This document shows, piece after piece, positions 10,401-15,513 of a stretch of 33,042 bases of DNA. A program made the position numbers and the translations under genes. Numbering within the stretch: position 1 is the stretch's first letter; every line of letters starts with the position of its first letter. Below the pieces are notes generated by a model. It searched no databases, was not told the DNA's origin, and saw only the letters and a program-made list of their open reading frames with translations. Source of the stretch: Desulfovibrio sp. OttesenSCG-928-A18 (GTDB lineage: Bacteria > Desulfobacterota > Desulfovibrionia > Desulfovibrionales > Desulfovibrionaceae); NCBI GenBank assembly GCA_030267245.1, contig JAJDJN010000005.1, forward strand, positions 1 through 33,042, read 5' to 3'.

Positions 10401-11183
10401 TCAGGATGATATCGCTGACTTCATCCGCGAAACGAATTCGAAGATCTGGCTTGCCGCGTTCGCGCCGTGCTGCTCGACCAGGCGCACTATGGCGCTGCCT
10501 ACAATGACCCCGTCCGCGTACCGCGCAACCTGCCTGGCCTGTTCCGCTGTGCCGATGCCGAAGCCGGCCGCCACGGGAATCGTCGCTTCGGACTTGATTT
10601 TTTTCAGCAGCCCGTCCAGGCCCGCGTCAAGCTGGCTGCGCACCCCGGTCACCCCCATGGACGCCACGGTATAGATGAAACCGGTGGCGGGGCGGATCAG
10701 CAGGCCCAGCCTCGCTTCCGAACTGGGCGCGATCATGCTTATCAGTGTCACCCCATGCGCGGCGGCAGTATCAGCAAGCTCGCCGTGCTCCTCAAAGGGC
10801 AGATCCGGTATGATGATTCCGTCAACTCCCTTGCCTTCGCATGCGGAAAAAAAGCGTTCATAGCCGTAATGGAATACGGGGTTCAGGTAGCTCATGAACA
10901 AGAGCGGCGCTTCGGTTTTTTTCCGCAGTGACTCCACCAGCGAAAACAGCTTGTCCACCGTTGTTCCCGCCGCCAGGGCGCGTATGTTCGCGTTCTGAAT
11001 GGTTGGCCCTTCCGCAATGGGGTCTGAAAAGGGAATGCCGATTTCGATGATATCGGCTCCGGCTTCCAGCATCTTCAGGATATACTCTTCGGATTTTTCA
11101 ATTGACGGGTCGCCCCCGGTTATGAACGCGATAAAGGCTTTGCCCTTCCCAAAGGCCCCGGCGATCCTGTTCGTCCTATTCAT
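10401..11183 (-). CDS. trpA: Tryptophan synthase alpha chain
   Basis: [47 protein letters not shown]. Confidence 0.96.
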
Positions 11184-12360
11184 GGAGTTCTCTCCCCCTG
11201 TATCTCGCGATTGCTGCCACGTCCTTGTCTCCCCTGCCCGAAAGGCAGATGACGATAATCTTGTCTCTGGGCATGGCCGGGGCCATTTTCAGCACATGGG
11301 CCACGGCGTGGGCGCTTTCTATGGCCGCTATGATGCCCTCGGTGCGCGCCAGGTATTCAAAGGCCGAAACGGCATCTTCGTCCGTGACCGGCACGTATTC
11401 CGCGCGGCCAGAATCATGCAGCCAGGCATGCTCCGGCCCGATGCCGGGGTAATCAAGGCCCGCTGAAATGGAATATACCGGCAGGATCTGGCCGAACTCA
11501 TCCTGGCAAAAATAGGATTTCATGCCGTGCAGTACGCCGGGCACGCCCCTGGCGATCGCGGCGGCGTGCTTTTTCGTATGCAGGCCCCGCCCGGCTGCCT
11601 CGCAGCCGACAAGCCCAACCTTTGCATCCTCGATAAAGGGAAAAAACAGCCCCATGGCATTGCTCCCTCCGCCGCAGCAGGCCACCAGCGTATCCGGCAG
11701 GCGCCCTTCGCGGGCCTGAACCTGTTCTTTTGTTTCCCGGCCAATCACGCTTTGAAAATCCCGCACCATGCTCGGGAAGGGATGCGGCCCCATTACGGAA
11801 CCCAGAACATAAAGGGTATCGTGCATTCTGGCCGTCCATTGGCGCATGGTTTCGTTTACCGCGTCCTTCAGCACCATGGTTCCGGTTTCGACGGCCACTA
11901 CCCTGGCCCCGAGAAGCTGCATCCGGTAGACGTTCAGAAGCTGGCGCTCCATATCCTCACGCCCCATGAAAATCACGCACTCAAGCCCGAGAAGCGCGGC
12001 GGCGGTGGCTGTGGCCACACCGTGCTGACCGGCTCCGGTTTCCGCGATTACCCTTGTCTTGCCCATATGTCTGGCCAGAAGCACCTGCCCGAGAACGTTG
12101 TTGATCTTGTGCGACCCGGTGTGGTTCAAATCCTCGCGCTTGAGGTATATTTTTGCTCCGCCAAGGTCCCTGGTCATCTTTTCCGCGAAGTAGAGCATGG
12201 ACGGCCTTCCGGCGTAATCGCGCAGCAGGGCGTCCAGTTCCGCACGGAAGCCGGCGTCGGCCATGCAGCGCTTATAGTGCTCTTCAAGGGCGATGATTTC
12301 GCTCATCAGCGTTTCCGGTATGTACTGGCCGCCGTAAACGCCGAATTTTCCCCTGCTCAT
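11176..12360 (-). CDS. trpB: Tryptophan synthase beta chain
   Basis: [23 protein letters not shown] (PLP Lys), [27 protein letters not shown]. Confidence 0.97.
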
Positions 12361-13049
12361 ATATCTTGCTCCTTTTGCAGCGCTCGCGCCGCTTTTACAA
12401 AGGCTGCCACTTTATCCTTGTCCTTTATCCCCGGTGACGATTCCACGCCGCTGAGCACGTCCAGCATGTACGGCGGGTATTTCGCCGGGACGAGGGTATT
12501 AAGCTTGTCCGGGCTGAGCCCTCCGGCCAGGATAACCGGCAGGCTTGTGCTTTTTATGAGCGTCATGTAAGCGCCGGGGTCAACCGCGCGCCCGGAGCCG
12601 CCTGGCCGGGCCCGCGTGAAAGAATCGATCAGCAGGGCGTCCGCTCCCGCCTTTTCAAGCGCCCCGGCCGCAACGGCGATATCCGGGATTTCAAAGTTCA
12701 GCCTGCCGCCGCTGTCTATCCGAAGGGCCTTTACCGTGGAAATGCCAAGGGCTTTCAGCCTGCCCGATATTTCGCAAAGTTCGGCCAGCGTTTCCTCATG
12801 GTGCAACTGAACAAAGTCCGGCCTCAGTTGGCGCGCCAGGCCGACTACCCGGTCAGGGCTGCCGCCCGTGACCATGAAAGTGCTGGTGCCGCCGGGGATC
12901 AGTCTGACGAGTGAGGCGGCCTTTTCGGCATCCAGATTCCACGGCACATCCGCCGGGTATTGCACCACAAAGCCGCAGGCGTCCGCCCCCGCGTCGACGC
13001 AGAGGCTGATGTCGGATTCCCTTGTTATTCCGCATATTTTTACTTTCAT
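12357..13049 (-). CDS. trpF: Phosphoribosylanthranilate isomerase
   Basis: [44 protein letters not shown]-like C-terminus. Confidence 0.94.
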
Positions 13050-13053
13050 AGGG

Positions 13054-13818
13054 CTAAATCCCCTCTGTGCTGGGCATGGAAAGCTCTTTGTACTTTTGAG
13101 CTATATCCGATGCCTTCAGGAGCGCGGTTCCCACAAGAACGGCATCCGCTCCCGCTTTTTTTGCCCGCGCCACATCGCCCGGGCTCATGATGGAGCTTTC
13201 GCTTACAATAAAGGGTCCACCCTGAACCGGATTGTCCCGGCCCACCTTGCCCCGCATCTCCTTGCCCCGCATCTCCTTGCCCCGTATCGCCCTGACCAGA
13301 GCTTCCGTGGTGCCGAGGCCTCCGTCATCTTTTTCCAGGGACATGATATCCCTGTTGTTTATGCCGACAAGCTCCGGGCTGATGGCGTTGGCCATCTCGA
13401 TTTCGGAAAGCTTGTGGGTCTCCACAAGCGCGGTCAGCCCGTGCTTGAGCGCGGCTTCGTACAGGCAGCCAAGCCGTTTTTCATCCAGCAGCGCCACGAT
13501 GAGCAGAACGGCGGCAGCGCCGGCCGAGGCGCTTTCCCGAATTTGCTCTTCGCTTCGTATGAAGTCTTTACGGAGCACGGGCACGGAAACCTTGGCGCTT
13601 ATGCGCTCAAGCATGGCCAGCGAACCGCCGAAATACTTTTCCTCGGTGACCACGGAGAGCGCCGGCGCTCCTGCTAAAACCAGGGTTTCGGCCAGCTTCA
13701 GGGCATCCCTGTCGCCGAGGAGCGGGCCTTCCTTGGGGCTGTGTCTTTTTATGTCGGCTATTACCGGCATGCGCCGGGTCAGGGCGCACTGTTTCAGGGT
13801 TTGCAGAAAGTTCATCAT
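13054..13818 (-). CDS. trpC: Indole-3-glycerol phosphate synthase
   Basis: MPVIADIKRHSPKEGPL, VPVLRKDFIRSEEQI, VGINNRDIMSLE, ADAVLVGTALLKA. Carries an unusual KEMRG repeat insert. Confidence 0.94.
   Translation of the reverse strand: MMNFLQTLKQCALTRRMPVIADIKRHSPKEGPLLGDRDALKLAETLVLAGAPALSVVTEEKYFGGSLAMLERISAKVSVPVLRKDFIRSEEQIRESASAGAAAVLLIVALLDEKRLGCLYEAALKHGLTALVETHKLSEIEMANAISPELVGINNRDIMSLEKDDGGLGTTEALVRAIRGKEMRGKEMRGKVGRDNPVQGGPFIVSESSIMSPGDVARAKKAGADAVLVGTALLKASDIAQKYKELSMPSTEGI
13246..13290. repeat. 15-bp tandem repeat (3 units) inside trpC
   Basis: CTTGCCCCGCATCTC / CTTGCCCCGCATCTC / CTTGCCCCGTATCGC; codes for (A-I/E-M)-R-G-K repeats on the minus strand. Confidence 0.9.
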
Positions 13819-14852
13819 GCCGCGCGCCTCGCCGCAAAGTCATGGGAGGCCTCGACAAGCTGTTTCAGCTTTCTTTCGGCGTTGCCGCCGTCGACCAGTT
13901 CCGCCGCCAGTTGCACGCCCTGCTTGATGCTGTCCGCCCGATCTCCGATATACAGAGCGCCGGCGGTGTTAAGCAGTATGGCGTCGCGGCGGTGCCCCCT
14001 GTCTTTGCCGGAAAAGACGGCCCGGATCATTTCCGCGTTGGCGGCGGGCGTGCCGGTTGCGATATCCTCAAGCCTGCAGCGCCCAAGCCCCACTTGTTCA
14101 GGCCTCAGTTCGTACCTGCTTATCTGGCCGTTGCGCAGTTCATAAATTTGGCTCGCGCCCAGCAGGGAAAGCTCGTCCAGGCCGTTGGTGCCGTGAACGA
14201 ACAGCGCCCGCGTGTAGCCCAGATCCCTGGCGACCAGGCTGACCATGTCGAGCAGTTCCGGCTTGTACACGCCCATAAGGTGCCGTTTGGCCAGGGCGGG
14301 ATTTATCAGCGGGCCGATGATCGTGTAGAAGATGGTCTTTATTCCCAACTCGGTTTCCGGCTTCAGCACCTTGCACATGACCGGATGAAACAGCGGCGCG
14401 TACAGAAAGGAGATGCCGATCTCCTCGATCATCTTTTCCACGTCGGGAACGGCGAGCTTGATTTCGACGCCCAGGGTCTCCAAAACGTCCGCGCTTCCGG
14501 ACAGGCTGGCTATGGAGCGGCTTCCGTGCTTTGCCAGGGGGATCCCGGCGCAGGCGGCCACGATGGCCGCCGCTGTCGAGATGTTGAAGGTGGACAGCCC
14601 GCCGCCCGTTCCGCAGGTGTCCATGAGATCTTCCCCCACCTTCGGGGCGATTTTTACGCAATTGGCGCGCATGGAAGTGGCGATTGCGGATATCTCGCCC
14701 ATGGTCGGGCCCTTCATCATCAGGGCGACCTGGAAAGCGCTGATCTGCACCTCGCTGACTTCATCATTGTTAACGGCCGAGATAAATTCGGCGACTTCAT
14801 TTGCGTCAAGTTCTTTGCCGCCGGTAAGCTTTGAAAGTATATTTTTGATCAT
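13815..14852 (-). CDS. trpD: Anthranilate phosphoribosyltransferase
   Basis: DTCGTGGGLSTFNISTAAAIVAACAGIPLAKHGSRSIASLSGSADVLETLGV, family-diagnostic. Confidence 0.96.
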   Translation of the reverse strand: MIKNILSKLTGGKELDANEVAEFISAVNNDEVSEVQISAFQVALMMKGPTMGEISAIATSMRANCVKIAPKVGEDLMDTCGTGGGLSTFNISTAAAIVAACAGIPLAKHGSRSIASLSGSADVLETLGVEIKLAVPDVEKMIEEIGISFLYAPLFHPVMCKVLKPETELGIKTIFYTIIGPLINPALAKRHLMGVYKPELLDMVSLVARDLGYTRALFVHGTNGLDELSLLGASQIYELRNGQISRYELRPEQVGLGRCRLEDIATGTPAANAEMIRAVFSGKDRGHRRDAILLNTAGALYIGDRADSIKQGVQLAAELVDGGNAERKLKQLVEASHDFAARRAA

Positions 14853-14939
14853 GACTTTTTCCTTTAAATCTGAATAATTGTATCAGTAGTTGTGCTTGGT
14901 GCGCGTTGTGCCGTTGCGGAGTAAGTCAGATTGTCCTTT

Positions 14940-14981
14940 GCCATCGCCGGCTTATTTTCTTGTAAAAGAGCCGGCGATGGC
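14940..14981. repeat. Long perfect inverted repeat in the trpL-trpD gap
   Basis: GCCATCGCCGGCT-16 nt-AGCCGGCGATGGC, 13-bp perfect arms; the loop has further TTTT/AAAA pairing. Confidence 0.9.
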
Positions 14982-15154
14982 GCCCGTGGACCCAAGCGGT
15001 GTTGGCGGCATAAAGATTCAGGGCGCCAGCGCCAGGCGCAAGGCCTGTGAGCGCGCCCAAAGAGGGCTCGGGATTTCCGAAATATTGGGTGGGAGTGAGG
15101 TGCATATGGTCTCCTGCTTGTTGCCGGGGGCAGGCAACGGAGACCCAACAGCAT

Positions 15155-15186
15155 AAGAAAAGGGCCGCAAGCGTTGCCTGCGGCCC
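15155..15186 (-). terminator. trp attenuator terminator
   Basis: On the minus strand: GGGCCGCA-GGCAACGCT-TGCGGCCC followed by TTTTCTT, just downstream of the Trp-rich leader ORF. Confidence 0.85.
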
Positions 15187-15195
15187 CTGAAACAT

Positions 15196-15240
15196 GTGCT
15201 CTATTTTTCAGACATGACTCATGACCGCGAAAAAGAGCAC
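15196..15240 (-). promoter_or_regulatory. trp leader hairpin overlapping codons just after the Trp run (1:2-type)
   Basis: Minus strand GTGCTCT...AGAGCAC (7 bp), continuing as TTTTC/GAAAA with a bulge; the first arm begins at the codons right after the three Trp codons. Confidence 0.7.
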
Positions 15241-15320
15241 CACCACCAGCGGCCAATGGAGAAGACGCCGTTGTAAGCGGCGTTGCGCATGGATGAGGTA
15301 TGGGCTGTTTTTGCGTTCAT
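15219..15320 (-). CDS. trpL: trp operon leader peptide, 33 aa with three consecutive Trp codons
   Basis: Minus strand ATG AAC GCA AAA ACA GCC CAT ACC TCA TCC ATG CGC AAC GCC GCT TAC AAC GGC GTC TTC TCC ATT GGC CGC TGG TGG TGG TGC TCT TTT TCG CGG TCA TGA; GGAAAG upstream; followed by the attenuator. Confidence 0.9.
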   Translation of the reverse strand: MNAKTAHTSSMRNAAYNGVFSIGRWWWCSFSRS

Positions 15321-15343: not shown

Positions 15344-15370
15344 GTTACATGCGGCCCACATTGTTGTCAA
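15344..15370 (-). promoter_or_regulatory. Candidate sigma70 promoter for the trp operon
   Basis: Minus strand TTGACA-N15-TGTAAC, with CGCA-N6-TGCG palindrome over the -10. Confidence 0.45.
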
Positions 15371-15460: not shown

Positions 15461-15513
15461 AATTAATCACCGGTACCCCCCCGGCAAAGCCGGGGGGTTA
15501 CCGGTGATTAATT
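15461..15513. repeat. 53-nt near-perfect hairpin downstream of hicB
   Basis: AATTAATCACCGGTACCCCCCCGGC-AAA-GCCGGGGGGTTACCGGTGATTAATT: 25-bp arms with one mismatch, 3-nt loop. Confidence 0.9.

Follow-up and report, generated by a model that had tools for sequence, protein, structure and literature searches.

The window, the whole 33,042-base stretch of DNA analysed here (contig C264), contains a minus-strand tryptophan locus in which a leader peptide gene and a putative attenuator directly precede trpD, trpC, trpF, trpB and trpA. Its parent assembly (G000), from a relative of sulfate-reducing bacteria, is a MAG of 2.37 Mb in 318 contigs, 66% complete and 0.11% contaminated, whose gene content presumably points to the Desulfovibrionaceae, and it was compared with 14 congeners and 288 genomes of the same family. 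The contig belongs to the genus, since its TypA is 76-89% identical to those of the congeners; typA lies 78 bp from trpA in convergent orientation, and dapF, on the other side, has 61% identity to that of G007. The locus comprises the following features:

15365..15370, minus strand: TTGACA, candidate -35 element, 266 nt before the trpE start position
15320-15219, minus strand: Trp leader peptide of 33 aa, with WWW as residues 25-27
15249..15254, minus strand: putative attenuator segment 1 (GGCCGC), which could pair with segment 2
15223..15228, minus strand: putative attenuator segment 2 (GCGGTC), positioned over the final codons of the leader; could pair with segment 3 as antiterminator
15160..15188, minus strand: predicted intrinsic terminator, segments 3 and 4
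15103..15114, minus strand: GGAGACC ribosome-binding site and ATG at the native trpE start position
14926..15105, minus strand: 59-aa ORF at the trpE start position, without recognisable trpE remnant
14940..14981, minus strand: inverted repeat with 18-nt arms in the spacer before trpD
13815..14852, minus strand: trpD of a divergent subfamily, with S111, E166, T177 and a deletion after GTGG
13054..13818, minus strand: trpC, foreign; catalytic Lys, Lys, Glu, Asn, Glu and Ser kept, with Asp for the first Glu
12357..13049, minus strand: trpF, foreign; catalytic Cys and Asp kept
11176..12360, minus strand: trpB, foreign; 73-75% identity to Syntrophomonadia and Lachnoclostridium, 53-56% to congeners
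10401..11183, minus strand: trpA, foreign; 51-56% identity, versus 34-38% to congeners

Directly upstream of the trp promoter region lies a HicB-domain gene (15898-15536, minus strand), itself preceded by a small HicA-like ORF (16122-15868), and an almost perfect palindrome (15461-15513; arms of 25 nt, loop of 3 nt) is located between hicB and this promoter region.

The leader ORF (MNAKTAHTSSMRNAAYNGVFSIGRWWWCSFSRS) contains three consecutive TGG codons at 15248-15240. The terminator stem comprises 13 bp, of which 9 are GC, and is followed by a T-rich tail; the fold of the leader-terminator region has a z-score of -4.4 relative to 200 shuffled sequences, none of which was equally stable (0/200). 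An RNA ending at segment 3, with segment 4 still incomplete, is predicted to fold as an antiterminator in which GCGGTC pairs with GGCCGC of the terminator arm. Judged from its sequence, the unit has the anatomy of a classical ribosome-mediated attenuator, and an Rfam search with the window leader returned zero matches.

All 14 congeners encode trpE, which adjoins a fused trpGD (450-730 aa; split into two frames in G002) in every genome except G005, where the two lie on different contigs, and trpC, trpF, trpB and trpA follow trpGD wherever the congener locus was read. In 12 of the 14, trpE is preceded by a leader-terminator unit (GGGCCGC...GCGGC and a T-run), most with a readable Trp leader. 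The leader-terminator DNA of the window is homologous to these pre-trpE stretches (blastn E 5e-17 to 4e-5; G004 5e-17, G014 2e-15, G005 1e-12 and G011 9e-7), with pairwise alignment z-scores of up to 13.6 between units. Counted from the trpE start, the positions in the window and in G004, respectively, are -266 and -267 for the -35 element, -216 to -114 and -221 to -113 for the leader, and -82 and -80 for the terminator. Across 13 sequences, pairing of the terminator stem is kept in 96.5% of cells, versus 39-56% in slid controls, and one stem position switches between A-U and G-C. On the evidence of the DNA homology, the same layout in 12/14 congeners, the paired terminator and the possible antiterminator, the attenuator of the window is native to the genus. 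The Trp-Trp-Trp leader and attenuator that the initial annotation placed before trpD are thus borne out by the TGG codons, the terminator fold and the congener homology, and its figure of about 365 bp from leader stop to trpD without trpE or trpG agrees with the measured 366 bp. Its intact promoter is supported in part: TTGACA is conserved in position (-261 to -268) in G004, G006, G009 and G013, but no consensus -10 was found. Gene order around trp and typA is not conserved in the genus, and the native trp locus gives no empty site to compare.

All five structural genes are foreign to the genus, as shown by the TrpD identities and tree and by the same identity pattern in TrpC, TrpF, TrpB and TrpA. 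Identity to the congeners is 30-36% for TrpD, about 29-38% for TrpC, 27-34% for TrpF, 53-56% for TrpB and 34-38% for TrpA, and the next TrpD among the 288 family genomes has 43% identity to that of the window. The best relatives are found in Syntrophomonadia (TrpD 63-66%, TrpC 44-51%, TrpF 44-50%), where the neighbours of divergent trpD include trpB with up to 75% and trpA with up to 56% identity. Furthermore, a Lachnoclostridium MAG encodes, as its second TrpD, a stand-alone protein with 65% identity to that of the window, a peptide-pattern search of GTDB genomes for close relatives of the window TrpD returned two (64-65%), and two Desulfobacterota of other families encode a TrpD with 54% identity. 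Maximum-likelihood analysis of 81 TrpD placed the window protein within an 11-member clade (support 100/99), a subfamily that occurs mainly in Syntrophomonadia, and all congeners in a separate 100/100 clade. A search for divergent TrpD on plasmids yielded only ordinary TrpD (about 40%) from three large replicons. The G+C content of the trp genes equals that of the other genes of the window, so that either some time has passed since the transfer or the direct donor had a similar G+C; no donor signature by G+C was found in the trp genes, and composition gives their foreign origin no support. In TrpC, Asp in place of the first catalytic Glu occurs in the inner clade members.

Related TrpD also occur in other settings. 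The Lachnoclostridium MAG encodes a complete T-box-controlled trpEGDCFBA operon followed by the extra divergent-type TrpD (L022:9989-11026, plus strand), in which the His of KHG is also lost. In L121:7159-8622 and L122:6663-8027 (minus strand), a TrpD of the 54% type shares one frame with an Lrp/AsnC ligand-binding domain and is followed only by trpC and trpF; a PF04392 substrate-binding protein is encoded near the L122 trpD.

Neither trpE nor trpG is present at the window locus. A domain search for PF00425 (chorismate-binding) and PF04715 (TrpE N-terminus) returned no match in the 66% complete assembly, with matches in 14/14 control genomes, and the assembly contains one trpD only, with no second copy. 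Chorismate synthase, present in 13 of the 14 congeners, was likewise not found in the 66% complete assembly, which may reflect the missing third of the genome. A trpE remnant after the retained ribosome-binding site was considered and rejected: the 59-aa ORF and all frames scored no higher than shuffled controls against an HMM of the 14 congener TrpE N-termini, the ORF falling below many of the shuffles. The initial annotation had proposed that trpEG were lost or moved. Both genes are indeed absent where the genus has them, as are PF00425 and PF04715 from the assembly, but the whole native operon appears to have been replaced here, rather than two genes lost. The counter-explanation that had been raised, with trpEG of the relatives at another site and a second attenuator before them, fails, as all 14 congeners have trpE and trpGD, 12 of them behind this same attenuator.

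TrpD type and the presence of PF00425 were also surveyed in 63 Syntrophomonadia genomes. A PF00425 protein (TrpE/PabB) is encoded by 32/32 genomes with ordinary TrpD and by 0/5 with only divergent TrpD (Fisher p 2.3e-6, an overstated value as the lineages are related). Three of these five TrpE-less genomes encode chorismate synthase, and chorismate is thus made in at least some of them. The divergent clusters are arranged as trpB-A-D-C-F or trpD-C-F(-B-A), and none includes E or G within the stretches examined. Two genomes (G289 and G306) encode both TrpD types, with an ordinary trpE-G-D operon separate from the divergent cluster. Among outer clade members, the PF00425 match of G594 looks like a stand-alone trpE; that of G534 was rejected as trpE, as it precedes an aminotransferase-like ORF and resembles pabB. 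Within the family of the window genome, the 93% complete G185 has a lone trpD (L127:7190-8218, plus strand) with no other trp genes nearby and no PF00425.

We hypothesize, with a probability of roughly two-thirds, that the native operon at this locus gave way to an acquired, anthranilate-synthase-free trpDCFBA behind the native attenuator, through which a salvaged aminobenzoate would be converted to tryptophan. The horizontally acquired genes would have taken the place of the native trpE-trpGD-trpC-trpF-trpB-trpA directly behind the attenuator, with the boundary of the replacement no further upstream than the former start of trpE. A shortage of charged tRNA-Trp would make the ribosome stall on the three Trp codons, segments 2 and 3 would pair, the terminator would not be formed and trpDCFBA would be read; when tryptophan is plentiful, the terminator would form. 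That the operon yields tryptophan follows from the ordinary trpBA at its end and from the Trp-codon switch ahead of it. Its enzymes would use PRPP together with an aminobenzoate as acceptor, most probably anthranilate or one of its close derivatives, which would come from outside since anthranilate synthase was found neither in the G000 assembly nor in the Syntrophomonadia with only divergent TrpD. The loss of trpEG is likely to be genome-wide. The regulatory switch would then have stayed put while all genes under its control were exchanged for a foreign, shorter pathway.

Counting against replacement, the leader could have been duplicated and the native operon could still be present elsewhere. 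It is possible, although unlikely, that a native trpEGDCFBA lies in the unassembled third of the genome and that the trpDCFBA of the window was acquired in addition to it, behind a second copy of the leader. At 66% completeness, an existing trpE would escape detection in about one case out of three, so that native trpEG may sit in the missing third, and G289 and G306 demonstrate that an ordinary trpEGD operon and a divergent cluster can occur in one genome. However, this arrangement requires duplication of the switch, the congeners contain a single trp set, and the only trpD of the assembly is the divergent one.

The acceptor site bears on the substrate of the acquired pathway. The window TrpD matches TIGR01245 over its whole length (360 bits; cut-off 199) and has the PRPP and metal residues of canonical TrpD (TIGR01245; PDB 9ucw), but differs from it by Arg164/193 to Glu, Asn109/138 to Ser, GTGGD without Asp, and a one-residue insertion before IGPL. 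Comparison of the pocket in alignment columns of 11 divergent and 70 ordinary TrpD revealed six columns that separate the groups, namely deletion of the GTGGD Asp, KHGN Asn to Ser, Arg to Glu, Asn177 to Thr, Glu49 to Pro and Leu280 to Phe. The Arg that binds the anthranilate carboxylate is Glu (window residue 166) in 11/11 divergent and Arg in 70/70 ordinary proteins; KHGN has become KHGS in all 11 (KTGS in one), whereas Asn is kept in 68/70; the GTGGD Asp is deleted in 11/11 and kept in 69/70; and Asn177 is replaced by Thr in every divergent TrpD and conserved in all 70 others. Contrastingly, the PRPP/metal residues G81-G84, N90, S92, K108, D226 and E227 (DE motif) are invariant in both groups. 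In Mycobacterium tuberculosis, R193 holds the anthranilate carboxylate and Asn138 contacts it, and substitutions at these sites weaken catalysis and give anthranilate a higher Km (PMC9835598); the same conserved Arg is numbered 159, 164 or 193, and GTGGD is a signature of the family (PMC5537072). With the catalytic residues of TrpC and TrpF kept and the TrpD pocket changed, recognition of the first acceptor seems to be altered and the later chemistry ordinary. Automatic annotation labels proteins of this subfamily as anthranilate phosphoribosyltransferase despite the replacement of the residues by which anthranilate is recognised.

These pocket changes argue against ordinary anthranilate as the substrate. 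An unlikely reading, compatible with replacement, is that the divergent TrpD does not use free anthranilate and that the starting compound is a derivatised aminobenzoate or some other aromatic amine, for which trpEG would be dispensable. The four changes shared by 11/11 members, the invariant PRPP/Mg residues, the reported roles of R193 and N138 (PMC9835598) and of Arg159/164/193 (PMC5537072), and chorismate synthase in three of the five TrpE-less genomes are consistent with such an acceptor. On the other hand, the retained TrpF and TrpC residues imply that the TrpD product should behave like phosphoribosyl-anthranilate, and a search for a candidate acceptor, or a gene for making one, yielded none. 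Also unlikely is an anthranilate-synthase-independent tryptophan branch in anaerobes, in which the TrpD acceptor site was rebuilt for a non-anthranilate substrate, with matching TrpC and TrpF, as a module that crosses phyla and here would have come under the attenuator of the recipient. Either these bacteria live on anthranilate from neighbours or a host, or tryptophan can come from another precursor.

Recycling of kynurenine in the style of Chlamydia caviae, in which host kynurenine would yield anthranilate through a kynureninase whose gene lies at another site of the genome, is very unlikely. One genome of the same family (G026; L128:4442-12410, minus strand) combines trpDCFBA in a single operon with genes for a TrpX-like ABC transporter and a kynureninase-like protein and has no PF00425, but its TrpD is of different descent in the tree, and no kynureninase was found in the 66% complete G000 assembly, in the seven congeners tested or next to the window operon. 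The G026 genome is 99% complete, and PF00425 and chorismate synthase are both absent from it. That an assembly or binning artefact joined a native leader to a foreign operon is very unlikely: although the MAG consists of 318 contigs and typA is nearest to G002, G003 and G012 (the last two partial matches) and the leader to G004, G005 and G014, the trp genes have the G+C of the host, estimated contamination is 0.11%, a genus-type typA lies 78 bp from trpA, and dapF is 61% identical to that of G007.

Replacement of the native operon sets the locus apart from several known systems that it resembles in part. Like the E. coli trpL type, its attenuator would combine tandem Trp codons, alternative segments 1-4 and an intrinsic terminator before the first structural gene; in contrast to that type, it precedes a foreign operon starting at trpD and has no Rfam match. 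Operons without trpEG are as such already known. Chlamydia caviae, C. felis and C. pecorum contain a trpR-trpDCFBA-kynU-prsA operon described as having lost trpEG, and in C. felis a putative Trp-rich leader directly precedes a classical trpD (PMC3937554). The window likewise carries trpDCFBA without anthranilate synthase and a leader before trpD, but kynU and prsA are absent from its operon, its genes are horizontally acquired and its TrpD acceptor site is changed. As of 2014, kynU was known in the chlamydial trp operon alone (PMC3937554). In the accessible portion of its description, variant A3 of 38 human gut genomes also comprises TrpDCFBA without TrpEG, with anthranilate salvage proposed; this portion, unlike the window, includes no TrpD subfamily, no altered TrpD pocket and no native attenuator that took control of such genes (PMC9026213). 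In the literature consulted, there is no precedent for a TrpD subfamily whose acceptor site is changed, for the association of this subfamily with missing TrpE, or for its capture, in a phylum far removed, by an attenuator native to the recipient.
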